NCBI RefSeq assembly: GCF_000374565.1
Contig: NZ_KB894689.1
Span: forward strand, 124,001-188,000
Direction of reading: 5' to 3'
DNA from: Siminovitchia fordii DSM 16014 = CIP 108821
GTDB taxonomy: Bacteria > Bacillota > Bacilli > Bacillales > Bacillaceae_C
Length of the DNA stretch: 64,000 nt
The notes below the pieces were generated by a model. That model was not told the origin of the DNA and ran no database searches. It was given only the letters and a program-made list of their open reading frames with translations. Position numbers and translations under genes: made by a program. This document shows, piece after piece, positions 3,500 to 20,062 of the stretch (position 1 is its first letter; each line of letters opens with the position of its first letter).

Positions 3500-4333
3500 A
3501 TGAGTCAAACAAAGTTGTATGTTTTGGATACCGGGAGAATGAGGATGGATAAAAATTTTATGGTTGCCATGCATAACCCCGCAAACATTGATAATCCTAA
3601 CCCGCCAGCTGAATTTATCGAGTTTCCTGTGTACGCTGTTCTGATAGACCACCCTGATGGAAAAATATTGTTTGATACTGGCTGTAACCCGGAAGGTATG
3701 GGTAAGGAAGGCCGCTGGCCGCAGGCTACTCAAAAAATGTTCCCTCTCTTTCAGGATGAATCTTGTTATTTGATTAACCGTCTTGAACAGTTGAAGGTGA
3801 GACCGGAGGATATCCGATACGTGGTTGCCTCCCATCTTCATCTTGACCATGCAGGATGCCTGGAACTGTTTACGAATGCAACGATCATAGTCCATGATAC
3901 TGAATTGTCCAATACGATGAAGCAATATGCAATGACGAAAGAGATGGGTGCCTATATATGGGCCGATATTGATGCCTGGATTAAAAAAGATCTATCGTGG
4001 AGAACAATCATGCCTAATGAGGATGAAATTGAACTTGCCAGTGGCATTAAAATATTGAATTTTGGTGCAGGGCATGCTTGGGGACTTTTGGGGCTTCACA
4101 TAGAACTGCCTGGAGAGGGAGGGATTTTACTTGCATCCGACGCCGTGTATTCAGCAGAAAACTATGGGCCGCCAGTCAAGCCCCCAGGGATTATTTATGA
4201 TTCCATCGGTTATATAAATACAGTTGAGAAAATCAAGAAATATGCAGAAAGAACAAATAGTCAAGTATGGTATGGGCATGATACCGAGCAATTTCATAGA
4301 TTTATAAAATCGACGGAAGGATTCTATGAATAA
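3500..4333 (+). CDS. Metallo-beta-lactamase fold hydrolase, N-acyl homoserine lactonase-like
   Basis: A 277-aa MBL-fold protein with the dinuclear zinc motif HLHLDHAG at residues 112-119. Further ligands are His in 'GHAWG' (about 198) and Asp in 'ASDAVY' (about 214), with a late 'GHD'. Length and motif order match the AiiA/AttM/AiiB lactonase group. Members open lactone rings, including acyl homoserine lactones and gamma-butyrolactones. Start ATG with a GGAGGG site. Its position among dehydrogenases suggests hydrolysis of a lactone intermediate rather than quorum quenching. The usual GHTPGH motif is altered to GHAWGL, so the substrate may differ from classical lactonases. Confidence 0.82.
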   Translation: MSQTKLYVLDTGRMRMDKNFMVAMHNPANIDNPNPPAEFIEFPVYAVLIDHPDGKILFDTGCNPEGMGKEGRWPQATQKMFPLFQDESCYLINRLEQLKVRPEDIRYVVASHLHLDHAGCLELFTNATIIVHDTELSNTMKQYAMTKEMGAYIWADIDAWIKKDLSWRTIMPNEDEIELASGIKILNFGAGHAWGLLGLHIELPGEGGILLASDAVYSAENYGPPVKPPGIIYDSIGYINTVEKIKKYAERTNSQVWYGHDTEQFHRFIKSTEGFYE

Positions 4334-7492: not shown

Positions 7493-9031
7493 CTATAATG
7501 GATGCCCGATAGTTTCTTCAACTATATAAATAATCTTGTTCGAATGAATAAGTTCCCGAAGACTTTGAATGTATGGATAGAGATATAAATCTTGATCGAG
7601 TTCAGGAACTAATTCTGATATACGGCTTAATACAGCACTTGAGGCAGATCCAGGCGATAAATCCTCTTCAATTAAATGAAAAGCTTGATAAATTGATAGC
7701 AGTTCGATTGCTAAAATAAATTCAAGTTTCTCTGCTATTTTACGTGCTTTTTTAGCCGCATTATACCCCATTGCCACATAATCCTCTTGATCGGCACTAG
7801 TCGAAATATTATCTACAGTCGATGGGTGCGATAATATCTTCATATCATTTAACAAACCTGCTTGTGTATATTGAGGAATCATAAGTCCTGAATTTAATCC
7901 CGGCTTCTCTACAAGGAAGGAAGGTAAATCGGAAAGCCTGCTGTTTATAAGGCGGCTATTCCTTCTCTCTGACATTTTTGCGATAGCAGTAGCTGCAATA
8001 CATGCGGAATCTAGTTCAATACCTATATAGGATGAATCACAATTACACCCGGATATTGCCCTTGCATTTTCTTCATCGGGCCATATAATTGGATTATCAC
8101 AACAAGCATTCATTTCAATATCAAAAGTTTTTAACGCATCATTTAATGTTTTCTTTGCTGCCCCATGAAGTTGTGGAATTGCTCGTAGAGACAACGCATC
8201 CTGTAACCTGTAATCCATAAACTTTTTTGAGATAGAAGAGTCAGATAATATCGTTCGGATATTAAAAGCTGTATCTCTTTGGTCCTTATGAGGCCGGACA
8301 CTCATTAAATTATCGTCAAACGCACGCACTGTTCCTTTTAATACTTCTAAAGCCATCGCGCCAATAATATCTGCCGTTTTCGAAGCCATTAACATATCAA
8401 ATAAAGCCAACGCCCCAATACCGGTGGGACTGGTTGTCCCATTGATAAGAGCCAACCCCTCTTTAGCAGAAAGCTGAATAGGCTCTGCATTAATTTTACG
8501 AAGTGCTTTTGTTGCCGGAAGAAGCTCTCCATTTATATAGGCCATACCCTCACCGATTAAAACAAGTGCAATATGTGCTTCGATACTTAAGTATCCAACT
8601 GAACCTTCTCCGGGAGCAAACGGGGTCAACCCTTTATTTAAAAATTCTTTATACATGTCAAGAATTTCAAGCCTGACTCCTGAATATCCCTGTCCTAAGT
8701 TTTGCAAAACCATTAGCATTACGGCCCGAACTTCCTCTTCTTTAAGCGGGTCTCCAACTGACGTAGCATGGGACAAAAGAATATTCTTTTGTAATTGGAC
8801 TGTCTCCTCTGGCATAATCATTTTTGAAGACAATGCTCCAAATCCTGTATTTACTCCATACATGACTTTTTTTTCTTCTATCCACTTTTCCACAAGTTGC
8901 CTTGAAGCCAATACTCTTTGACAGTATTTATCTGAAAACTCAACCTTGGCCTTAAAACGTGAAACCGCTACTAAGTCTTCCAGTGATATTGGCTCTCCAA
9001 GAGTTACTTTTGTAATATCTTTAGGCAGCAT
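7493..9031 (-). CDS. HAL/PAL-superfamily lyase lacking the MIO motif
   Basis: A 512-aa full-length relative of histidine ammonia-lyase. Conserved family parts are present: 'YGVNTGFG' (Tyr58), 'SHAT' (His88), 'INGT' (Asn198), 'CDNPII' and Glu of 'QEDYVAMG'. The MIO cofactor normally forms from Ala-Ser-Gly in GSVGASGDLAPLAH. Here the sequence is GSVGYLSIEAH (residues 143-153; bases 8573-8605), which is three residues shorter with no Ala-Ser-Gly. The usual Tyr of YSLRC is Leu280 (DALSLRAIPQ), while Arg283 is kept. The reading frame is intact, so this is not decay. An ordinary ammonia-lyase reaction is therefore unlikely. Elimination of a better leaving group, such as trimethylamine from a histidine betaine, would not need MIO. 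The gene lies 20 bp after the BCCT transporter gene and has a GAGGAGGG site. Confidence 0.85.
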   Translation of the reverse strand: MLPKDITKVTLGEPISLEDLVAVSRFKAKVEFSDKYCQRVLASRQLVEKWIEEKKVMYGVNTGFGALSSKMIMPEETVQLQKNILLSHATSVGDPLKEEEVRAVMLMVLQNLGQGYSGVRLEILDMYKEFLNKGLTPFAPGEGSVGYLSIEAHIALVLIGEGMAYINGELLPATKALRKINAEPIQLSAKEGLALINGTTSPTGIGALALFDMLMASKTADIIGAMALEVLKGTVRAFDDNLMSVRPHKDQRDTAFNIRTILSDSSISKKFMDYRLQDALSLRAIPQLHGAAKKTLNDALKTFDIEMNACCDNPIIWPDEENARAISGCNCDSSYIGIELDSACIAATAIAKMSERRNSRLINSRLSDLPSFLVEKPGLNSGLMIPQYTQAGLLNDMKILSHPSTVDNISTSADQEDYVAMGYNAAKKARKIAEKLEFILAIELLSIYQAFHLIEEDLSPGSASSAVLSRISELVPELDQDLYLYPYIQSLRELIHSNKIIYIVEETIGHPL

Positions 9032-9051
9032 CTTAATATCCCTCCTCTTTC

Positions 9052-10635
9052 TTATTTTTTTACCTCATCTACAAAAAACATTTTAATTGCTGAAGCAACC
9101 TGTAAGACAAAAACAAACAGAATAGCTGTACCACCAAGAGCAGCCAAGTATTTAACACCATCCACACCTTGTTCTCCACCGGCAAATGCTACCATAACAA
9201 AAGCGATAATACCGATAGAAATAGCCCATAGAAGCTTTTTCCATTGATCCGGTTCCTCATCATGGCGAATGTTTGCAGTACACAATTGAGATATAGAACG
9301 GACCATTGAGTCAGCCGCAGTTGCAAAAGATAAAATAAGAGTTAACATTATAACTGGAATGATAATGAATCCCAATGGTAAATTGGATAAAAATGTCCAC
9401 AACCCCGCTACAGCACCACTGTTCTTTATCGTTCCGACTAAATCTGCAACATTATTTTGCTGCCAGTTTAAAGCAGTACCGCCCCAAATGCCGATCCACA
9501 CGATACTAAATACCGAAGGCAATATCCAGTTCACAATCATGAATTCACGGATTGTGCGTCCTTGAGAAATGACCGCCAGATAAATCCCCATAAGCGGAGC
9601 ATACGCAATCCATATAGCCCAATCATATAGTGTCCACCACATGACCAGAGCTTCCCCACCTATGTCAATTGGATCAAGCCCCCATACCCAAAAATTTTGC
9701 AACCAGTATCCCATACCTGCTGTAGAGGTACGCAAATTGTACAACGTCGGTCCCAAAAGGATGAGCGCAAAAAGAATAATATAAAAGACCTTCACATTAA
9801 TTTCCGATAATATGCGAATTCCTTTATCTAAGCCTCTCAATGTCGATAAAGTAAAAGTAGCTGTAATCAAAATAGTTAAAGTCAACCAAATAAAAGGACT
9901 TTGAGGTATTTTATAGATGGCTTCAATGCCCGATCCTACCAAGGCAAGTCCCGCTCCCAATGAAGATGCTAAACCGAGAGCAATTGCCAAAACAGCGAGC
10001 GTATCGACTATACTTGGCCAGATTCCTCTTGTTATCCTGTCTCCAAACAAAGGAGTCAACGTTGCAGATACAGATAACGATTTTTTTCGATTGTAGTACA
10101 TATAGGCAACTACTAAACCACTTAATGAATACATAGCATAGGGAATAAACGACCAATTGTAGAAGCTGCGGCCCATCGCATAAATAGCTGCAAGCGGGGT
10201 ACCTGGTTCCACTCCGGCTCTTTCCATTTCCCCGTAAATATTTCCAAAATATATAATTGGTTCATTTACACCGTATGTAATTAACCCTGTGGCAATACCG
10301 CCGGTCAAAGCCATGGCAAACCAAGCTGAAAACTTGTACTTAGGCTTTGTATTTGCACCCCCTAACCGTACATTGCCTAGTTTTGAAAAAGTCACAATTG
10401 CAACAATTATTAATGCCACAATAGAAACAATCTGATATAACCATCCCAGCCCCTTTAAGGACCCAACAAATCCATTCATGGCAATGTCCGTTAATAATTT
10501 GTTATTAACGATACCGAGAATTGCACCTCCCCCTACAATGAAAAAAGCAGGCCAAAATACTCCCTTTCTTGTTTTTCGTTTAGCGGTTTCATCAGTTTCT
10601 TCAAGTTCAGCAATGTCCCTTTCAGCTTTTAGCAT
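9052..10635 (-). CDS. BCCT family transporter (quaternary ammonium type)
   Basis: A 527-aa membrane protein of the betaine/carnitine/choline transporter family with about 12 hydrophobic segments. The signature aromatic region is visible as 'WWTLYDWAIWIAYAPLMG', followed by 'SQGRTIREF'; 'YGVNEPIIYF' is near residue 110. BCCT proteins carry trimethylammonium compounds by ion symport or antiport. The ATG at 10635 follows AAGGAGGG with good spacing; the longer reading from 10701 adds 22 residues without a ribosome site. A terminator and cre box separate it from hutG, and the MIO-less lyase follows 20 bp downstream. This suggests one transcription unit for uptake and cleavage of a betaine. Confidence 0.92.
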   Translation of the reverse strand: MLKAERDIAELEETDETAKRKTRKGVFWPAFFIVGGGAILGIVNNKLLTDIAMNGFVGSLKGLGWLYQIVSIVALIIVAIVTFSKLGNVRLGGANTKPKYKFSAWFAMALTGGIATGLITYGVNEPIIYFGNIYGEMERAGVEPGTPLAAIYAMGRSFYNWSFIPYAMYSLSGLVVAYMYYNRKKSLSVSATLTPLFGDRITRGIWPSIVDTLAVLAIALGLASSLGAGLALVGSGIEAIYKIPQSPFIWLTLTILITATFTLSTLRGLDKGIRILSEINVKVFYIILFALILLGPTLYNLRTSTAGMGYWLQNFWVWGLDPIDIGGEALVMWWTLYDWAIWIAYAPLMGIYLAVISQGRTIREFMIVNWILPSVFSIVWIGIWGGTALNWQQNNVADLVGTIKNSGAVAGLWTFLSNLPLGFIIIPVIMLTLILSFATAADSMVRSISQLCTANIRHDEEPDQWKKLLWAISIGIIAFVMVAFAGGEQGVDGVKYLAALGGTAILFVFVLQVASAIKMFFVDEVKK

Positions 10636-10685
10636 GATAATTCCCTCCTTATTACGGATAATCAAATTTGGATTTCGAAAAACAC

Positions 10686-10700
10686 CTGTAATCGCTTGCA
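10686..10700 (-). promoter_or_regulatory. cre-like site before the BCCT gene
   Basis: CTGTAATCGCTTGCA matches WTGNAANCGNWNNCW at every position except the first. It lies about 50-65 bp upstream of the BCCT start codon and downstream of the terminator that follows hutG. This fits separate, catabolite-repressed transcription of the transporter-lyase pair. Confidence 0.5.
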
Positions 10701-10726
10701 TACAGAATTACATTAGTGAACTTGCA

Positions 10727-10760
10727 AAAATAACACATACCGCCGGTAACCGGCGATATG
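10727..10760 (-). terminator. Terminator between hutG and the BCCT gene
   Basis: On the minus strand CATATCGCCGG pairs with CCGGCGGTATG around a TTA loop, followed by TGTTATTTTT. It would stop most transcription after hutG. Confidence 0.7.
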
Positions 10761-10778
10761 TATACAACTTTAAACCTT

Positions 10779-11753
10779 TTACTTGACGTGAACCATCGCT
10801 CTGCCTGTCACAAACTGTAACCAGGCATATACTCCGGTTTTCACCGTTTCAGAAACTGACGAATCTTTCGTCGGGTCCAAACAGACAAAGTCGAGATTTT
10901 GCACTTCCGTACATTTCCCAATTTCGATCAATGCGTCAAACAGTTCTACTGTCGTCATGCCGCCTGGAGTTGATGCGGGAACTCCAGGGGCTTGCGTAAT
11001 ATCAAGAACGTCCATATCAACCGTTACGTAAATACGATCTACTTTTTTAGATAGGCAATCCAACGCCTCTTTGACATGAACCGAGACGCCCTTTTTCCTG
11101 GCTTGCTTGAGTGTGACCATATTAATCTCATGTTTTTTCGCATAGTCAACGAGAGGTCGCGCATTGAAAAAGCCGTGTAATCCGATGTTATAGACATCCC
11201 TACCTTTGATTACGCCACCGTCAATAAGTTGTCTAATCGGCGTTCCATTAGCAGGCCCAAGCTCGGCTGGATCTCGGACATCCAAATGTGTATCAAGTTG
11301 CAGAATGCCGATGGTTTCATTGGGAAAAGCTTGCTTAATTCCACGAACAGCGCAGGCGGTCGTGGAGTGATCTCCCCCAATCATACAAATAGTAGATTTA
11401 TAATATTGTTGGGAGAGATATGCCGTGGAAGCCTCAATTCTATTATGCGATTCCAAAATATTGGTTGTATGCATGACAACATCTCCAGCATCCGATACTT
11501 GGAGTGTTGATAAGTCGATATCCTCATCTAAATTGTAAGTAGTAAAGCTCTTCCACATTTTCCGGAATTCTTGCGGATATAAAGAAGCGCCGGACACGCT
11601 GATGGAGGATCGTGAAATCGGAGCGCCATAAAGCAGCAGGTCAGGTGCCTCCGTTCCTTCATTAAGCGGGCGAACCCATTGGTGAACAAAATAAGGCTCC
11701 CCTTCAATTGAATTCCAATACCACTCTGGTCTACTCAGCCAATTTTCTCCCAT
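10779..11753 (-). CDS. hutG: Formimidoylglutamase
   Basis: A 324-aa ureohydrolase (arginase fold) that hydrolyses N-formimidoyl-L-glutamate to glutamate and formamide, the last step of this Hut route. Manganese motifs are 'GGDHST' (about residue 125), 'DTHLDVRD' (about 152) and 'DMDVLDI' (about 245), slightly changed from the arginase DAHxD and DxDxxDP. It starts 3 bp after the hutI stop, so the two genes are translationally close. Length matches Bacillus HutG. The operon context makes this call stronger than the motifs alone. Confidence 0.9.
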   Translation of the reverse strand: MGENWLSRPEWYWNSIEGEPYFVHQWVRPLNEGTEAPDLLLYGAPISRSSISVSGASLYPQEFRKMWKSFTTYNLDEDIDLSTLQVSDAGDVVMHTTNILESHNRIEASTAYLSQQYYKSTICMIGGDHSTTACAVRGIKQAFPNETIGILQLDTHLDVRDPAELGPANGTPIRQLIDGGVIKGRDVYNIGLHGFFNARPLVDYAKKHEINMVTLKQARKKGVSVHVKEALDCLSKKVDRIYVTVDMDVLDITQAPGVPASTPGGMTTVELFDALIEIGKCTEVQNLDFVCLDPTKDSSVSETVKTGVYAWLQFVTGRAMVHVK

Positions 11754-11756
11754 CTG

Positions 11757-13013
11757 TTATACCACCTGGATTCCTTTCTTCCAAACTGATTGTACATGAT
11801 TGACTCCAAATAAATATTGCAATTCCTGATAGTTTTTCACATTCCACAGAACTATATCTCCCAGCTTGCCTACTTCCAGGGATCCAACCTGATCCTGGCG
11901 GTTGATTGCACAGGCAGCATTGTATGTAGCTGCCGTCAGTGCCTCCGCTGGTGTCATCCGCATGGAAATGCAGGCAAGGTTCATGACGAGCGGCATGGAA
12001 GTTGTAGGTGATGAACCAGGATTGGCATCGGTCGAAATCGCCACGGCAACACCTTCATCAATCATGGCGCGGCCAGCAGCGGCTTGTTCTCGCAAATAAA
12101 GCGCAGTTGCAGGAAGAAGGCAGGCAATCGTACCGGATTTCGCCATCGCGCGAATTCCTTCTTCAGATGCCTTCAATAAATGCTCAGCCGAAATCGCTCC
12201 AACTTTGGCAGCCAACTCAGCTCCACCGTATGGCTCAATTTCATCGGCGTGGATTTTTGGAGTCAGCCCATAACGTTTGCCTGCTTCCAGAATCCGTTCG
12301 GATTGTTCAGGCGTATAGACATCTTTTTCACAAAATACATCGTTAAACTCGGCTAATTTTTCCTCAGCAACGATAGGAAGCATTTCTTTAATGACAATGT
12401 TGACGAATTCATCTTCATGCCCCTTGTACTCAGGCGGAACCGCATGGGCGCCCATGAATGTTGGTACAAGATCGATCGGATGAGTCTCTTGAAGCTTTTT
12501 CATGACGCGGAGCTGCTTCAATTCCGTCTCCAGATCCATTCCATAGCCGCTTTTCCCTTCAACTGTTGTAACACCATGGGCAAGGAAGGAGTTCAGGCGT
12601 CTTGTTGACTGCTCGATCAACTCTTCTTCTGACGCTTCCCTTGTCATACGGGTGGTGGCATGTATGCCGCCACCGGCGTTCATGATTTCCATATACGTGG
12701 AACCTTTGAGCCGCATTTCAAATTCCCGTTCACGGCTGCCTCCGTATACTACGTGTGTATGAGGATCGACAAGGCCAGGGGTCACCAGGTGGCCTGTTGC
12801 ATCCACAACTTGCGCTTCATGCACTCTTGAAGCATATTGCTGTTCAAGCTCCACCGTTGTGCCTATTGCCTTGACGACACCGTCCTCGATCCATACACTT
12901 CCATCTTCAATTAATCCCAATTCCGACATTGCCTCTTTTGAACGCGGTCCGTTCACATCAGAAGCAAGCGTTGCAAGCTGCGCCGCGTGTTTGATCCAAA
13001 CAGGCTTTGTCAA
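11757..13013 (-). CDS. hutI: Imidazolonepropionase
   Basis: A 418-aa amidohydrolase-superfamily enzyme that opens 4-imidazolone-5-propionate to N-formimidoylglutamate. Metal-binding '[13 protein letters not shown]' is near residue 80, '[12 protein letters not shown]' near 245 and '[11 protein letters not shown]' near 325, all characteristic of HutI. The start is TTG, overlapping the hutU stop in ATTGA, with a GGGAGTG site. This overlap indicates translational coupling with hutU. Confidence 0.95.
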
Positions 13014-14689
13014 TTTCGGTCACTCCCTTTATCTAGCATTGGAATTTTCATACCTGTTTCACGTGCCTTATTAACTGCAATATCATAACCTGCATCAACG
13101 TGGCGGACAATTCCCATTCCAGGATCAGTTGTAAGTACACGCTGTAGACGGGCTTCCGCCTCTTTCGTACCATCAGCTACGATAACCACCCCTGCGTGAA
13201 GGGAATAACCCATACCTACTCCGCCCCCGTGGTGCACGGATACCCATGTCGCGCCGCCGACAGCATTAATCATCGCATTGAGGATCGGCCAGTCAGCCAC
13301 AACATCCGAACCATCTTTCATCGCTTCAGTTTCACGGTTGGGGGACGCGACCGAACCGGAATCCAGATGGTCTCTTCCGATAACGATCGGGGCTTTCAAT
13401 TCGCCGTTGGCAACCATATCATTCAGGATTTTGCCAAAGCGTGCACGTTCCCCATAGCCAAGCCAGCAAATACGGGAAGGGAGGCCTTGGAATTCAATTT
13501 TCTCTTGAGCCATGCGTATCCAGTTGCAAAGATGCTCATTATCCGCAAATTCTCGCAAAATGGCCTCGTCTGTTTTATAAATATCTTCAGGATCACCTGA
13601 AAGAGCGGCCCAGCGGAAAGGACCTTTACCCTCACAGAACTGTGGTCTGATATAAGCCGGAACGAATCCCGGAAAATCAAATGCATTTTCGACACCCTCG
13701 TCTTTGGCAACCTGACGGATGTTATTTCCATAGTCAAAAGTGATGGCGCCTTTCTCCATCATTTCCAACATCGCTCTTACATGGGCGGCCATAGATGCTT
13801 TTGATAGTTTCACATATTCATCCGGATTGGATTCACGAAGCTGTGCTGCTTCTTCCAATGACATCTTTGATGGTACATAACCGTTCAGCGGATCATGCGC
13901 GGATGTTTGATCTGTAAGGGCATCCGGAATAAAATCACGTTTGATCATTTCTGGTAAAATATCAGCCGCGTTGCCGACCAAACCAATGGATAAAGCTCTA
14001 CCTGCTTTCTTCGCTCTCTCAGCCAAATGAATGGCCTCGTCCAATGAATGGGCTTTCATGTCGGTGTAGCGCGTTTCAATGCGGCGGTCAATTCTTGTTT
14101 CATCGACGTCGATTGCAATGACTACACCGCCGTTCATTGTCACAGCCAATGGCTGAGCCCCGCCCATGCCGCCAAGCCCTGCTGTAACAGTAATTGTATT
14201 TTTCAATGTACCATTGAAGTGTTGCTTCGCAAGTTCAGCAAATGTTTCATATGTTCCTTGAACGATTCCCTGCGAACCAATATAGATCCAGCTTCCCGCA
14301 GTCATCTGCCCATACATCATAAGTCCTTTTTTATCCAGTTCATGGAATGTATCCCAGTTTGCATAAGCGGGAACAATGTTGGAATTTGCAATCAGTATGC
14401 GTGGAGCGTCAGTATGGGTTTTGAAGACAACGACAGGCTTGCCTGATTGTACAAGCAGGGTTTCATCTTCATCAAGTTCTTTCAACGTCTCTACAATAGC
14501 GTCAAAAGATTCCCAGTTGCGTGCCGCTTTCCCGATACCTCCATAAACAACGAGTTTGTCCGGATGTTCTGCCACTTCGGGATCTAAGTTGTTCATTAGC
14601 ATGCGGAGCGCCGCTTCTTGCTGCCAGCCTTTTGTATTTAATGTTGTCCCTCTGTAACGAATGACTTTCGTTTTTGAGACTGCATTCAT
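13010..14689 (-). CDS. hutU: Urocanate hydratase
   Basis: A 559-561-aa urocanase that uses tightly bound NAD+ to convert urocanate to imidazolonepropionate. Clear motifs are '[14 protein letters not shown]', '[12 protein letters not shown]', '[10 protein letters not shown]' and the active-site region '[10 protein letters not shown]'. The latter is canonical, which favours true urocanate rather than thiourocanate as substrate. Two ATGs are possible (14695 and 14689); the second has correct spacing from GAGGAGG. It is the first gene of the leftward hutU-hutI-hutG unit. No canonical hutH is in the window. Confidence 0.95.
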
Positions 14690-14833
14690 CTTCATTACCT
14701 CCTCACATTGTTAATTTTATTCTATAGTAAATATTCCAAAAATTTCTTTTGTTTTATTTGTATTTTTATAAAATGTTGATTAGTTCATAGCTATTTCGCG
14801 TTAATTTATAAAATATTTCATTTTTTCTTTCAG

Positions 14834-14884: not shown

Positions 14885-16354
14885 TTACAGCCCTGAACGG
14901 TAAGCTGATGGTGAGCAGCCTTCAAGCTGCTTGAATTTGGCGCTAAAATAGGTTTGGTGAGAGTATCCGCACAACCGTGCAATTTCTTCCATAGATAAAT
15001 CTGTTTCCATTAATAGGCGTTTTGCTTCTCTAATTCGCACACGATGGAGCGTGTTCTGGAATGAATGTCTGGATTCGGCTGCAAAACGGCGGCTTAAGGT
15101 GCTTTTATTTACCCGAAGTGTATCGGCACATTTGGCCAGGTTCCATTGAGCATCCCAATAGTTGGATTCAATCAACTCTCTGGCCTTCTCAACAAGCTCC
15201 TGTTTTGTTTCTTGTCCGTTATCCCAGTTCTCTGTAAGCAATCCTGTTGTAAACTTGATCAGTTCTTGGATAATGTCGTAAATGACCGGGTTTTGGACAA
15301 TTTGAAGGAAAACATGATGGTAGGCTGATTCCCAGGGGGGTGTTTTAATATCATGTGATTTCATATAACGTCGGATTTGCGCGAGTACGCTGGTCAATCG
15401 GACACGAACAACCTCTGGGTCTGGATAAGGCTCGTGAAAAGTCAGAAATTCACTCTCCATCCAATCACGGATTGCCTTTATATTTCTTCGCTCAAGCATT
15501 TCAATCCACTCCCGTTGTTCCAATGGAGTAAGAAATGGATCCATCTCTTGATATGTAATTTGTTCTTCTTCTGTCAGGATAATGTCGTACCCTTCGAAAA
15601 AGACCCGTCTTATTAATTGCCGTATCTGTTGATAGGTGTGTTTTAATGAATCTTCCTGAGATGCTTTTTTAATGACAATTGCAAGTGACTCATCCATCAT
15701 TTCCTTCCAGCGTGCAAGAAATGCATGGTGTTCCTCTTGAAATACATCATGCTCCCGTGTTTCACGCACACATAAAATAAAATCCGATAAAGCGAATGTC
15801 CAGTATCTCCCGGTAAATGGATATTGTTCTAATTCGCTTAATATGACGGGAAGGATTTCAGCTTTAGGGGTCAAAAAAGCAGCCATCATATAAGGAGCGT
15901 GGTATTTCCGTCCGCTCACAAATAGATCAGTGTATTCAATGGCCGATGCTCCATCATTTTCTGATGTTTGTTTCGACAGACTGTGCTTGTCATTTCTTAA
16001 TTGATAGCGTAATTGCTGAATCCGTTTAATCAGATCCATAGGAGAAAATGGCCGAAAGAGGACATCTTCCGCCCGGAAACGGAGCGCTTGATAGACCGTC
16101 TGGAAAATCCGCTCAGATGAAAGGCCCAGCCAGTGGATGTTCTTCTTCTGCAGAATCTCACCGATCTTTTGGCTCTCATCCTTCCAGCCATCCATATCTA
16201 AAATGATCAGGTCCGGCTGATGCTTTGTTACACCAAATTGGAATTCATCCATTGAATTCCATCGAATCAGATGAACGCCGGTAAGATGGGATGTCACCAT
16301 CCATTGTATTCCTTGTGCCTCTAACTCGTTTTTTGCTATCAAGTGGATCTCCAA
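14885..16354 (-). CDS. AraC-type regulator with receiver-like N-terminus
   Basis: A 489-aa regulator. Residues 1-120 look like a response-regulator receiver ('PDLIILDMDGW' around residue 55 supplies the phospho-acceptor Asp position). A long middle region of about 250 residues has no recognised motif. Residues about 390-489 form an AraC double helix-turn-helix, with 'SLEEIARLCGYSHQTYFSAKFK'-like spacing and the final 'GCSPSAYR'. No sensor kinase gene is nearby. Start TTG with a GAGGGTG site. It lies between the hut unit and the molybdenum hydroxylase operon and could regulate either; nothing in the sequence decides this. Confidence 0.82.
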   Translation of the reverse strand: MEIHLIAKNELEAQGIQWMVTSHLTGVHLIRWNSMDEFQFGVTKHQPDLIILDMDGWKDESQKIGEILQKKNIHWLGLSSERIFQTVYQALRFRAEDVLFRPFSPMDLIKRIQQLRYQLRNDKHSLSKQTSENDGASAIEYTDLFVSGRKYHAPYMMAAFLTPKAEILPVILSELEQYPFTGRYWTFALSDFILCVRETREHDVFQEEHHAFLARWKEMMDESLAIVIKKASQEDSLKHTYQQIRQLIRRVFFEGYDIILTEEEQITYQEMDPFLTPLEQREWIEMLERRNIKAIRDWMESEFLTFHEPYPDPEVVRVRLTSVLAQIRRYMKSHDIKTPPWESAYHHVFLQIVQNPVIYDIIQELIKFTTGLLTENWDNGQETKQELVEKARELIESNYWDAQWNLAKCADTLRVNKSTLSRRFAAESRHSFQNTLHRVRIREAKRLLMETDLSMEEIARLCGYSHQTYFSAKFKQLEGCSPSAYRSGL

Positions 16355-16921
16355 TTGCTACACCCTCTTTAGTCATATACCTTTTATCAATATAAAGGAT
16401 ATTAACATGATTTTCTAACTGAATTTACTTGAAAAAATCTTTCGTAACGGACTTGTCAGTTAAAACTCAATGGTGCCCAGTGTCCTTTAACACGGAAGAA
16501 GAGGCAAGGGCCTATGCTCTTTTGGACCATCGAATATGGGGCCACTGACAACAACTGAAAAAGCCCGAGCCAATTAACATACTTCTTACGCTGATTTAAC
16601 CGCCAGGATCAGATCAATTAAATCTATGAGAAAAGTGGATATTATGATTTTTAGGTCAACTTTCTTCCCCTGTGATGGGACGCTAAAGAGGAATGGAAAA
16701 TCCTGCAGAGTCAGTTCCAAAATCTACAGGAGAGCATTAATCAGGTTAATATCCGGATCAATCTATTCTGCTGTGTCTTTTTCCATGAGTGTCACCTGCC
16801 TATTCCTCATGTATAGGGTGATCATGCAGGGGTATCACCTTCAGGGAAATATCATTTAACAGGCATCTCCATCATAAGATGAAATAGTATGAACTCATGT
16901 GGGTGGGGGGTGACAGGAATC
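16355..16921. other. Intergenic region upstream of the molybdenum hydroxylase
   Basis: About 560 bp between the divergently oriented AraC-type regulator and the hydroxylase operon. It must contain both promoters, but none is clear. A 77-aa frame (16626-16859) lacks a good ribosome site and any recognisable feature. A short open stretch around 16441-16548 encodes a plausible protein-like segment without a start codon, perhaps a gene remnant. Confidence 0.35.
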
Positions 16922-19240
16922 ATGACGATTATCGGGCAGAGTGTTTTCAGGAAGAACTCCTGGGAAAAGGTAACCGGAAAAGCGAAATATACGGACGATT
17001 TTGAGTCGCCTGAAATGCTGTACGGTAAGCTTGTGACAAGTCCTTATGGACACGCAAAAATAGATTTTTTTGATACGTCTGAAGCGCTAAAAATAAGAGG
17101 AGTGCGCGCTGTAATCACAGGAGGAGAATTTCCGCTCACGGGTGAAGAGATGCGGGACCGCCCGCCAATAGCTGTTGACAGGGTACGGTATTATGGGGAG
17201 GTTGTTGCCATCGTTGTTGCAGATACCCTTGCAACAGCTCAACTTGCAGCAACTCAAATCCGCATGACATATTCTCCTCTCCCGGTTGTGAATTCCCCAA
17301 GTGAAGCTCTCCAACCGGGTGCGCCACTTCTTCATGAAAAACTTGGCACCTATGAAAAAATTGCCGGTGTATATCCGGTGCCCGGGACAAATATTGCATC
17401 AAAAATTAAAATTCGCAAAGGAGACATTCGAAAGGGGTGGCAAGAGAGCGATATTTCTGTACGGTCCACCTTTTCCTTTAATCCATCGGACCATGCAGCG
17501 ATGGAAACTCGATGTTCTTTTGCGCAAATTCATGAAGACGGAACAATCGAAATCACTTCATCTTCACAGGCGCCTTTTATGATTAAAAAGCTGATCGCGC
17601 AATATTTTGGAATTCCTGTAGGCAACATTCTTGTGAAAACTCCATTGGTGGGCGGGGCCTACGGCGGAAAAGCATCAGTACAGCTTGAAATCCTGGCATA
17701 TATCGCATCAAAGGCGGTAAACGGCAGGCTGGTGAAAATCGTGAATGACAGGGAAGAAGATATGGTCACCTCTCCAGGACATATCGGTTTGGAGGCAACA
17801 GTAAAGCTTGGCTGCACAAGCGATGGAATGATAAAGGTTGCAGAGCTGCTTTATTTATGGGACGGCGGTGCCTATTCAGATAAATCGATAGACTTGGCTA
17901 GAGCAGGTGCTGTTGATTGCACGGGGCCTTACCGCATCGAAAATATTTATTGCGATTCACTTTCTATGTACACCAATCATCCTTATCCTGCGCCGTTCAG
18001 GGGTTTTAGCCACTCGGAAGTCCACTTCGCTTTCGAGCGTGCGATGGATATGATGGCAAAAAAATTAAACATGGATCCACTTGATTTCAGATATATAAAC
18101 GCGATCAGGCCGGGCGATACGACGCCCACCCAAGTAAAACTGAATACAAGCAATGTCGGCAACGTACAAAAATGTATGGACAGGTTAAAAGAACTAATTC
18201 ATTGGAAGGATGGGCAAAGGGTCGAAGTTGATGAAAACATAATAAGAGCCAAAGGAGTCAGCTGTATTTGGAAAACTTCCACAATCGATACAAACGCAAG
18301 CTCAGGAGTCATCTTAACGTTTAACCCGGATGGGAGCGTCAATTTAATGTCTGGCGTTGTAGAAATCGGAACCGGAACCAAAACGATCTTGGCACAGATT
18401 TTAGCTGAGAGATTGAAAATGCCGATTGAGAAAATCCACGTTCAAATGCTGGTCGACACCCGAAATACACCTGAGCATTGGAAGACTGTTGCTAGCAGAG
18501 GAACGTTCATGGCAGGCAGGGCGGTTCTAAACGCAGCAGACGATGTGATTTTGCAACTAAAGGAAAGGGCCTCTTGCATTTTGCGCGCACCTATTGAAGA
18601 TTTGGAAGTGGGGTATGAAAAAGTATTTCTTCGTGACGACCTGGATATCCACGTTCTTGTAAAAGACATTGCATATGGTTATGTTTATCCCAACGGAAAT
18701 GCGGTCGGCGGCCAGATCATCGGAAGCGGAACATACACGCTCAGGCATTTGACTCAACTGGATAAAGAAACGGGTGCGGGAAAGCCAGGGCCGGAATGGA
18801 CTGTCGGCGCTCAAGGTGTCGAAGTTGAGATCGATACAAGAACATACCGTTATCGGTTGTTAAAAGCTGTCTCTGTCATTGATATCGGCAGGGTGTTAAA
18901 TCAAAAGACAGCGGAAGGACAGGTAATGGGGGCAATGAATATGGGCCTGTCCTTTGGAGGGCGGGAAACCTTTCTTTTTGATCAATATGCGCGGGTTCTT
19001 AATCCCCAACTCAGGACGTACCGACCGATTCGCTATGGCGAGCAGCCTGAATACATCGTCGACTTTGTCCAAACGCCGCAATTGGATGCCCCTTATGGAG
19101 CACGGGGAGTCGGAGAGCATGGCCTGATTGGCATGCCGGCGGCACTGGCAAACAGTTTATCCGCAGCGCTTCAAGTGGATCTTCATCATCTGCCTCTTAC
19201 TCCTGAATTGTTATGGAGATCAAGAGAAGGGAGGACGTAA
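16922..19240 (+). CDS. Molybdenum hydroxylase, molybdopterin-binding large subunit
   Basis: About 772 aa, xanthine dehydrogenase/CoxL family. The N-terminal 'GKAKYTDD' opening is typical. Mo-cofactor loops include 'VGGAYGGKASV' (about residue 250), 'APFRGFSHSE' (about 360), 'EIGTGTKT' (about 480) and the catalytic Glu in 'GARGVGEHGL' (about 735). These enzymes hydroxylate N-heterocycles or aldehydes using water. I prefer ATG 16922 (MTIIGQSVF) to 16889, because it is where the family normally begins. The gene is 3 bp from the FAD subunit and heads a large-medium-small operon. The CO dehydrogenase AYRCSFR loop is absent; the substrate is unknown. Confidence 0.9.
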   Translation: MTIIGQSVFRKNSWEKVTGKAKYTDDFESPEMLYGKLVTSPYGHAKIDFFDTSEALKIRGVRAVITGGEFPLTGEEMRDRPPIAVDRVRYYGEVVAIVVADTLATAQLAATQIRMTYSPLPVVNSPSEALQPGAPLLHEKLGTYEKIAGVYPVPGTNIASKIKIRKGDIRKGWQESDISVRSTFSFNPSDHAAMETRCSFAQIHEDGTIEITSSSQAPFMIKKLIAQYFGIPVGNILVKTPLVGGAYGGKASVQLEILAYIASKAVNGRLVKIVNDREEDMVTSPGHIGLEATVKLGCTSDGMIKVAELLYLWDGGAYSDKSIDLARAGAVDCTGPYRIENIYCDSLSMYTNHPYPAPFRGFSHSEVHFAFERAMDMMAKKLNMDPLDFRYINAIRPGDTTPTQVKLNTSNVGNVQKCMDRLKELIHWKDGQRVEVDENIIRAKGVSCIWKTSTIDTNASSGVILTFNPDGSVNLMSGVVEIGTGTKTILAQILAERLKMPIEKIHVQMLVDTRNTPEHWKTVASRGTFMAGRAVLNAADDVILQLKERASCILRAPIEDLEVGYEKVFLRDDLDIHVLVKDIAYGYVYPNGNAVGGQIIGSGTYTLRHLTQLDKETGAGKPGPEWTVGAQGVEVEIDTRTYRYRLLKAVSVIDIGRVLNQKTAEGQVMGAMNMGLSFGGRETFLFDQYARVLNPQLRTYRPIRYGEQPEYIVDFVQTPQLDAPYGARGVGEHGLIGMPAALANSLSAALQVDLHHLPLTPELLWRSREGRT

Positions 19241-19243
19241 ACA

Positions 19244-20062
19244 TTGCTGCCGGCTTATGTGGAATATCACCGACCTGCAAGTTTGGAGGAAGCAGTGGAA
19301 ATGTTCCAGAATTTAAAACAGGCAAACAAAGAACCGATGTATTGGTCCGGTGGAACCGAAATTTTAACGCTTGGCCGGCTGAATATTGATACGCCGGGTT
19401 CCGTCATTGATATAAAAAACATCACGGAAACGATGGCTTTAGAAAAAACATCGCAGTTTTTATCGATTGGCGCTGCTGTTCCCTTGTCCGTTCTTGAAGA
19501 CGATAACAGTTTTCCATTATTAACAGAAGTTTCGAGTGGCGTTGCCGACCTGACCGCCCGCAATAAAATTACAATTGGAGGAAATATTTGCGGGAAAATT
19601 TTTTACAGAGAAGCGATATTGCCTTTTCTTTTGGCAGACAGCCATGTCCTCGTCGCAGATTTGCAAGGAATGAAGGAAGTCCCAATAAATGAGCTAAAAA
19701 TGGAAGAGGGACAATTGCTTGTATCCATTCAAACAGACGCTTCCTTTCTTCATCTGCCTTTTATTGCACGAAAAATACGGAAACAATGGGAGACCGGTTA
19801 TCCTCTTATAACCGCCGCGGCGGTCAAAACCGAAGGTCAGATCCGGTTGGCCTTTAGTGGACTTTGTCCATTTCCGTTTCGGTCATCAGCGATGGAAAAT
19901 GAATTAAACAAATCAGAATTGCCTATTGAGAATAGGATAGAGAGAGCTTTGGAACATGTGCCTGAACCAATCCTGGATGATATCGAGGGCTCCAGGGAGT
20001 ATCGTCTGTTCGTTTTACGAAATCTCTTACTGGACTTTTTGACCGAACTGGAGGGGGTTTAG
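19244..20062 (+). CDS. Molybdenum hydroxylase, FAD-binding medium subunit
   Basis: A 272-aa FAD-binding PCMH-type subunit. It begins 'LPAYVEYHRPASLEEAVEM', typical of CoxM/PucC-like proteins, and has the FAD loop 'YWSGGTEIL' (about 30-38). The second FAD motif, usually TIGGNLCN, reads 'TIGGNICGKIFYREA', so the stretch after it is atypical. TTG start with GAAGGGAGG. The stop overlaps the GTG start of the small subunit. It passes electrons from the iron-sulphur subunit to NAD+ or another acceptor. Confidence 0.85.
   Translation: MLPAYVEYHRPASLEEAVEMFQNLKQANKEPMYWSGGTEILTLGRLNIDTPGSVIDIKNITETMALEKTSQFLSIGAAVPLSVLEDDNSFPLLTEVSSGVADLTARNKITIGGNICGKIFYREAILPFLLADSHVLVADLQGMKEVPINELKMEEGQLLVSIQTDASFLHLPFIARKIRKQWETGYPLITAAAVKTEGQIRLAFSGLCPFPFRSSAMENELNKSELPIENRIERALEHVPEPILDDIEGSREYRLFVLRNLLLDFLTELEGV

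Follow-up and report, generated by a model that had tools for sequence, protein, structure and literature searches.

Which substrate is used by a lyase of the histidine ammonia-lyase (HAL) family that lacks the catalytic 4-methylideneimidazol-5-one (MIO) group and is encoded, together with a betaine-type transporter, beside genes of the histidine utilisation (Hut) pathway? The question is raised by a locus of Siminovitchia fordii DSM 16014 = CIP 108821, in a stretch of 64,000 nt (assembly GCF_000374565.1, contig NZ_KB894689.1, positions 124,001-188,000 of the forward strand) called the window hereafter. On its minus strand the elements follow in the order AraC-type regulator, hutU, hutI, hutG-like gene, terminator, cre-like site, betaine/choline/carnitine transporter (BCCT) and HAL-family lyase, with the BCCT gene placed 20 bp upstream of the lyase gene. 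An initial annotation had described the leftward run from hutU to the lyase, and all its genes were recovered as stated with matching families, as were its terminator and cre box. It included neither the AraC-type regulator nor the canonical, MIO-type hutH that is present elsewhere in the genome. From the sequence evidence detailed below we consider it probable that the BCCT imports hercynine and that the lyase eliminates trimethylamine from it, giving urocanate for HutU, HutI and the HutG-like enzyme. The module is thereby predicted to be a second entry into the Hut pathway, through an MIO-free lyase working like ergothionase and lying outside the ergothionase clade.

The lyase and its active site

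The Ala-Ser-Gly triad that forms the MIO was already reported as absent in the initial annotation. Alignment with the HutH of the same genome confirmed this: the window lyase has GSVGYLSIEAH where HutH has GSLGASGDLAPLSH, and the correspondence of GSLG-ASGD-LAPLSH with GSVG-Y-LSIEAH indicates that the triad was removed by a three-residue deletion. The motif pattern of this class, named YL, matched once in the window and in 0 of 100 shuffles. With the hutH equivalog model TIGR01225 the protein scored 505.5, missing the cut-off of 539.15. Its AlphaFold2 model (pLDDT 90.3, pTM 0.92) was compared with known structures, resulting in template modelling (TM) scores of 0.92-0.93 to the HAL of P. putida and of 0.88 to ergothionase. 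As judged from alignment and model, the window lyase has the HAL fold and the substrate-holding residues. The dN/dS calculated against a copy from the same genus was 0.153, and the lyase is therefore under purifying selection.

Active-site positions were compared, in HAL numbering, over 54 YL, 23 HutH and 4 ergothionase-like rows; since the motif itself was the criterion for YL rows, all of them lack the triad by definition. The equivalents of Y53, Q277, R283, M382 and E414 are invariant in the 54 YL rows, that of H83 is retained in 51 and a Ser/His pair in 44. Other positions differ. Y280, N195 and F329 are each conserved in 23/23 HutH rows; in YL rows the first is Leu in 44/54, as in 4/4 ergothionase-like rows, and the second is Ser in 27/54. 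Residue 332 is His throughout HutH (23/23), Asp in 49/54 YL rows, and Glu or Asp in 4/4 ergothionase-like rows. At residue 151, Leu is found in all the HutH and ergothionase-like rows (23/23 and 4/4) and Glu in 49/54 YL rows. In Geobacillus HAL, as described in PMC11432326, Asn, Gln and Arg hydrogen-bond the substrate ammonium or anchor the carboxylate, Phe stabilises the cationic intermediate, Tyr assists Glu, and the Ser/His pair is a substrate-switch motif. On the basis of these roles, the residues that YL lyases have often, not always, lost can be tied to ammonia and MIO chemistry and the retained ones to substrate holding. The acids at 332 and 151 suggest, by inference only, that they face the trimethylammonium group.

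Thus, compared with HutH (P. putida 1b8f, TM 0.93, and the copy of the same genome), YL lyases share the fold, the substrate-holding Tyr, Arg, Glu and Gln, usually the Ser/His pair, and the partners HutU, HutI and HutG. They differ by the absence of Ala-Ser-Gly and MIO, by the usual replacement of Tyr280 and the frequent replacement of Asn195 and Phe329, by the BCCT alongside in many loci, and by their coexistence with a true HutH.

Ergothionase catalyses the elimination of trimethylamine from a histidine betaine. The T. denticola enzyme (6s7j) has in common with YL lyases the HAL fold without MIO and Leu at the Y280 position. However, it is 27% identical to the window lyase in the structural alignment (TM 0.88), belongs to a separate clade, and reads Glu-Gly-Asp at the MIO site. 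It also has a Lys at a position occupied by Tyr in YL lyases. This position, in the QKT motif, whose lysine takes part in binding the sulfur, is Lys in 3/4 ergothionase-like rows and Asn in the fourth (L111), versus Tyr in 54/54 YL rows and 20/23 HutH rows.

The lyase tree was built by a quick search from 54/96 full-length YL rows and 23/39 HutH rows, dropping open reading frames (ORFs) shorter than 440 aa and keeping the MIO columns, with SH-aLRT as the support measure and a midpoint root. All 54 YL rows group in a single clade (SH-aLRT 99). A branch supported at 96 separates this clade and HutH from the T. denticola ergothionase and its kin. The likeness to ergothionase proposed in the initial annotation stands for the absence of MIO and needs correction for the clade, the window lyase belonging to a separate MIO-less one. 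How YL, HutH and a further MIO-broken class with the motif GVGDLQPMAH (GVGD) branch relative to one another is not settled by the tree, and the ergothionase-like group of 4 has a support of 29; long branches were seen for L075, L100 and L151. Given this and the midpoint rooting, it is likely, but not proven, that MIO was lost in YL separately from ergothionase.

The GVGDLQPMAH class was found in the window's own taxonomic family (L190-L194, in loci L017-L021). HutU was not found in the stretches fetched around these lyases, and the class was therefore not merged with YL. In L017, the gene adjoining the lyase passes the NCBIfam model of the N-carbamyl-L-glutamate amidohydrolase ErtE (570.8, above 520). 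The long-branched L075, from a Rhizobium laguerreae plasmid, is an ergothionase-like lyase with the QKT motif, whose best PDB match is the T. denticola ergothionase (266 bits).

Neighbourhood, transporter and distribution

A total of 98 YL loci were examined, all of them encoding the motif; the named loci, the best 80 among 563 confirmed ones, come from a contig scan with short YL-like fragments. The gene caller missed the lyase in six loci (L102, L108, L109, L117, L123 and L131), so that counts on called genes refer to 92 loci and may also miss other genes; the main figures were recounted by tblastn on all 98. As a control we used 20 canonical hutH loci of Bacilli genomes, one of these stretches being shorter.

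By tblastn, a BCCT was detected near the lyase in 40/98 YL loci and 0/20 controls (Fisher p = 0.0001, an optimistic value because the rows are related); restricted to the Bacilli sample, the counts were 5/15 and 0/20. Any hut gene was found in 33/98 YL loci versus 8/20 controls. The BCCT is thus peculiar to YL, and hut genes are about equally common beside YL and HutH. The same search detected a group of major facilitator superfamily (MFS) transporters in 27/98 YL loci versus 1/20 controls, and an N-methyltryptophan-oxidase-like gene in 14/98 versus 0/20. Chemoreceptors carrying a domain that binds glycine betaine were seen in 6/98 YL loci and 1/20 controls. The control MFS and chemoreceptor matches come from two stretches (L163 and L164) that sit at YL clusters. 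The initial proposal of a BCCT partner holds in some lineages, MFS proteins being found in others.

On called genes, a BCCT was identified in 33/92 loci with a median gap of 29 bp, on the same strand and within 150 bp in 28, and a member of the regulator's sequence cluster lay within 8 kb of the lyase in 31/92. Some arrangements are particularly compact. In L081, L095 and L106, AraC, BCCT, YL, hutU, hutI and hutG form a single run with gaps of at most 47 bp after the BCCT. In L083 (Priestia abyssalis) and L085, hutH and a carrier (AgcS-type in L085) are followed by BCCT and YL, then by the regulator and one shared hutU-I-G set: here the two-branch arrangement put forward in the initial annotation can be seen directly. 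A true HutH lies within the same cluster as YL in these two loci and in L063.

The window BCCT is the lowest-scoring of the genome's nine BCCT genes and falls short of the cut-off of each of the five NCBIfam models that it matched. A tree was calculated with 31 of the 33 called BCCT rows of YL loci, two rows below 400 aa being dropped. A branch supported at 99 separates 30 of the 31 from BetP, from the trimethylamine transporter (8zw8) and from the eight remaining BCCTs of the genome; the exception, from L158, is a distant gene. The window protein shares with BetP and 8zw8 the Pfam BCCT domain and may retain part of the aromatic cage; it differs from them by grouping with the BCCTs of other YL loci. 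Its alignment with BetP paired FHWTLHPWAIY with YNWSFIPYAMY and WAWWISW with WAIWIAY, around the BetP positions of the aromatic cage for the quaternary ammonium. These data fit a dedicated transporter travelling with the YL lyase, with hercynine as its predicted substrate.

Among 398 Bacilli genomes, 15, including that of the window, gave matches of at least 647 bits, all with the Y-L motif. A true HutH was shown in 12 of them, the remaining three carrying a second, unclassed match. Only 2/34 genomes of the window's taxonomic family have a YL lyase, hence a patchy occurrence in this family. The initial annotation had treated the operon as a matter of Bacillaceae; the module is not confined to that family, since the best 80 of 563 loci fall in Bacillus, Halobacillus, Clostridium, Sporomusa, Acidaminococcus, Blautia, Streptomyces, Mycobacterium, Paraburkholderia, Pseudomonas and others. 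A Priestia megaterium plasmid carries a version ordered regulator-hutU-I-G-MFS-MFS-YL.

Several loci showed further particularities. Nine (L097, L104, L113, L114, L127, L128, L137, L142 and L151) encode two YL lyases, several in tandem, suggesting that the paired enzymes have related but different substrates. In Geosporobacter ferrireducens (L088, 11552-13525), a chemoreceptor fused to an OpuAC glycine-betaine-binding domain is encoded directly downstream of the lyase. In Peribacillus and kin (L133, L139-L141, L143, L144, L146 and L147), YL is followed by N-methyltryptophan-oxidase-like and 5-oxoprolinase genes; such N-methyl-amino-acid-oxidase neighbours fit an N-methyl-histidine theme, other substrates also being possible in those lineages. 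In Acidaminococcus massiliensis (L105, from 9545 on), one stretch encodes a YL lyase and a BCCT along with a molybdenum hydroxylase-type gene and an ergothionase-like lyase (SSIGEGDITTLSH). In L071 and L072 the YL lyase is accompanied by a pair of HutU genes, of which one is only 52-53% identical to the window HutU.

Choice of the substrate

A single match to hutU was found in the genome, namely the window copy. Its protein falls below both thiourocanate hydratase cut-offs (NF058530, 710.8 versus 930; NF058531, 727.4 versus 880). Out of the 33 HutU genes called across the set, 13 proteins were scanned, including both of L071, and all 13 passed as urocanate hydratase and missed both thiourocanate hydratase cut-offs. 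The lyase product is expected to suit the canonical HutU, and histidine is already served by HutH; hercynine is the simplest histidine derivative that would need a betaine carrier and no MIO. The preference of the initial annotation for hercynine over ergothioneine is in line with the canonical HutU proteins and the missing ergothionase lysine, and its betaine-type transporter feeding urocanate to HutU-I-G likewise draws support from context and residues. EgtD (PF10017) gave no match in the window genome, and betaine biosynthesis in the same genome was set aside. Hercynine is listed among the abundant quaternary ammonium compounds of soil (PMC8550315). Among the matches listed in the open literature that we searched, neither an operon of this type nor a lyase for hercynine was described.

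The substrate, products, transporter specificity, mechanism and regulation of the module would then be as follows. Hercynine (Nalpha-trimethyl-histidine) would enter through the BCCT. The equivalents of HAL Tyr53, Arg283 and Glu414 would serve to abstract the beta-proton and to drive out trimethylamine, for which, as a leaving group, MIO activation should be unnecessary. The resulting urocanate would be converted to glutamate by HutU, HutI and the HutG-like enzyme. Plain histidine would be handled by the separate MIO-type HutH, drawing on the same single HutU. The AraC-type protein, probably belonging to the module, would be its regulator.

A number of observations weigh against this assignment. 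Positions connected with ammonia chemistry are not uniformly replaced: Y280 is still Tyr in 10/54 YL rows, N195 still Asn in 25/54, the window lyase included, and F329 still Phe in 18/54, and the acids at 151 and 332 are missing from five basal rows. The window lyase barely passes PRK09367, the NCBIfam HutH subfamily model (524.5 versus 524), and its best PDB sequence matches are true HALs (313 bits, versus 168 for ergothionase). Two Trp of the BetP cage are Tyr in the window BCCT, so that the cage would be kept only in part. No hut gene is found near 65/98 YL loci and no BCCT near 58/98, with MFS instead or additionally in 27/98; on called genes, both the BCCT and this MFS group are missing from 32/92 loci. 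MttB (PF06253) gave no match in the window genome, which leaves the fate of trimethylamine unexplained.

Some of these points would suit other explanations. A lyase for another trimethylammonium or N-methyl compound, such as N,N-dimethylhistidine, a ring-methylated histidine betaine or, in lineages without hut, an aromatic betaine such as hypaphorine, is in our view unlikely for the window. It would account for the N-methyltryptophan-oxidase-like neighbours (14/98, one oxidase scanned), the MFS proteins (27/98) and the nine loci with two YL lyases each, but in the window's own subclade the lyase is tightly linked with canonical hutU-I-G at several loci, which speaks for urocanate as the product. 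We regard as quite improbable that the lyase is an ergothionase, releasing trimethylamine from ergothioneine or its sulfonate with degradation of thiourocanate (or its sulfonate). Both enzymes lack MIO, most of both have Leu at the Y280 position, and both carry an acidic residue at 332 (49/54 and 4/4); however, YL lyases form a separate clade, have Tyr in 54/54 rows in place of the QKT lysine (3/4 ergothionase-like rows), and occur with HutU proteins below the thiourocanate hydratase cut-offs (13/13 scanned), and the presence of both genes together in L105 suggests different substrates. Ergothionase was set aside on the clade, the lysine and the canonical HutU.

The HutH-like pocket residues, the Ser/His pair, the hut neighbourhood, the marginal PRK09367 score and the HALs as best PDB matches could also speak for an ammonia-lyase that acts on L-histidine without MIO, or for a HutH whose function is drifting. 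We hold this to be very unlikely: a true HutH coexists with YL in 12/15 Bacilli genomes and shares its cluster in L063, L083 and L085, and a BCCT stands beside YL and beside 0/20 HutH. The MIO loss, the coexisting HutH and the BCCT partner led us to set plain HutH aside. Loss of the cofactor might finally denote a homologue that no longer catalyses a reaction and serves in sensing or as a structural protein. This seems hardly credible for a protein in an operon, with a dN/dS of 0.153 and with Tyr53, Arg283 and Glu414 equivalents invariant in 54/54 rows; a dead enzyme was set aside on purifying selection and these invariant catalytic residues. Hercynine remains the substrate that we retain as probable.

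Organisation of the module and possible significance of the YL lyases

The features of the module are collected in Table 1. The HutG-like protein is under the TIGR01227 cut-off (171.4 versus 229.15 bits), yet this model is its top match. The BCCT start at 10635 is preceded by AAGGAGG and, as read from the sequence, is more probable than the one at 10701; the cre-like site would then fall in the BCCT-lyase leader. Eight cre-like sites were found in the window for 1.3 (1.33) expected, and 17 terminator-like sites in the region for 8.8 expected. Promoter-like sites in the region were at the chance level (24 for 23.8 expected). The G+C content of the module (0.39-0.50) shows no clear compositional separation, and horizontal transfer is not indicated by composition. 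Compared with the Hut pathway of Bacillota, hutU, hutI and hutG-like genes are common to both, and the difference is the predicted second entry by an MIO-less lyase with its own transporter.

Table 1. Features of the module, with positions in the window
Feature	Position	Strand	Evidence
MIO-less HAL-family lyase (YL class), 512 aa, predicted hercynine trimethylamine-lyase	7493-9031	-	PF00221 Lyase_aromatic, 535 bits
Site of the lost MIO triad, P-G-E-G-S-V-G-Y-L-S-I-E-A-H	8573-8614	-	Pattern match and alignment
BCCT transporter, predicted hercynine importer	9052-10701, probable start 10635	-	PF02028, 380 bits
cre-like site	10687-10701	-	Site scan of the window
Intrinsic terminator, after hutG and before BCCT	10733-10763	-	14-pair stem, 7 G-C, T tail
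hutG-like Arginase-family hydrolase	10779-11753	-	Arginase family, 198 bits; TIGR01227, 171.4 bits
hutI, imidazolonepropionase	11757-13013	-	TIGR01224, 500.4 bits (cut-off 298.15)
hutU, urocanate hydratase	13010-14695	-	TIGR01228, 984.5 bits (cut-off 375); three urocanase domains
AraC-type regulator, probably belonging to the module	14885-16354	-	HTH_18 domain

Two other regions of the window were noted. A gene at 3500-4333 encodes an AhlS-family quorum-quenching N-acyl homoserine lactonase (NF047976, 543, above 475). Beside the module regulator, 16889-20062 holds the gene of a xanthine-dehydrogenase-like molybdenum subunit, which is under all cut-offs, and the next ORF.

Beyond the window, the chances seem to us evenly balanced that YL lyases are a new and widespread class of MIO-free betaine lyases, derived from HutH-like ancestors separately from ergothionases and commonly annotated as histidine ammonia-lyase, that they enable many bacteria to use hercynine as a source of carbon and nitrogen, and that trimethylamine formation by these enzymes has been overlooked in anaerobes such as Blautia, Acidaminococcus and Oscillospiraceae. 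Both annotated YL examples that were checked (2/2) bear the database label histidine ammonia-lyase. If the proposed reading is right, many genes so labelled would route hercynine to glutamate, releasing trimethylamine. A recent survey (PMC13405746, 2026) reports that few genera have ergothionase and cautions that divergent homologues are missed; the YL clade is one set of divergent homologues of that kind, and possibly an added source of trimethylamine. The YL lyases would also provide a clean case of a protein-derived cofactor discarded once the leaving group improves.

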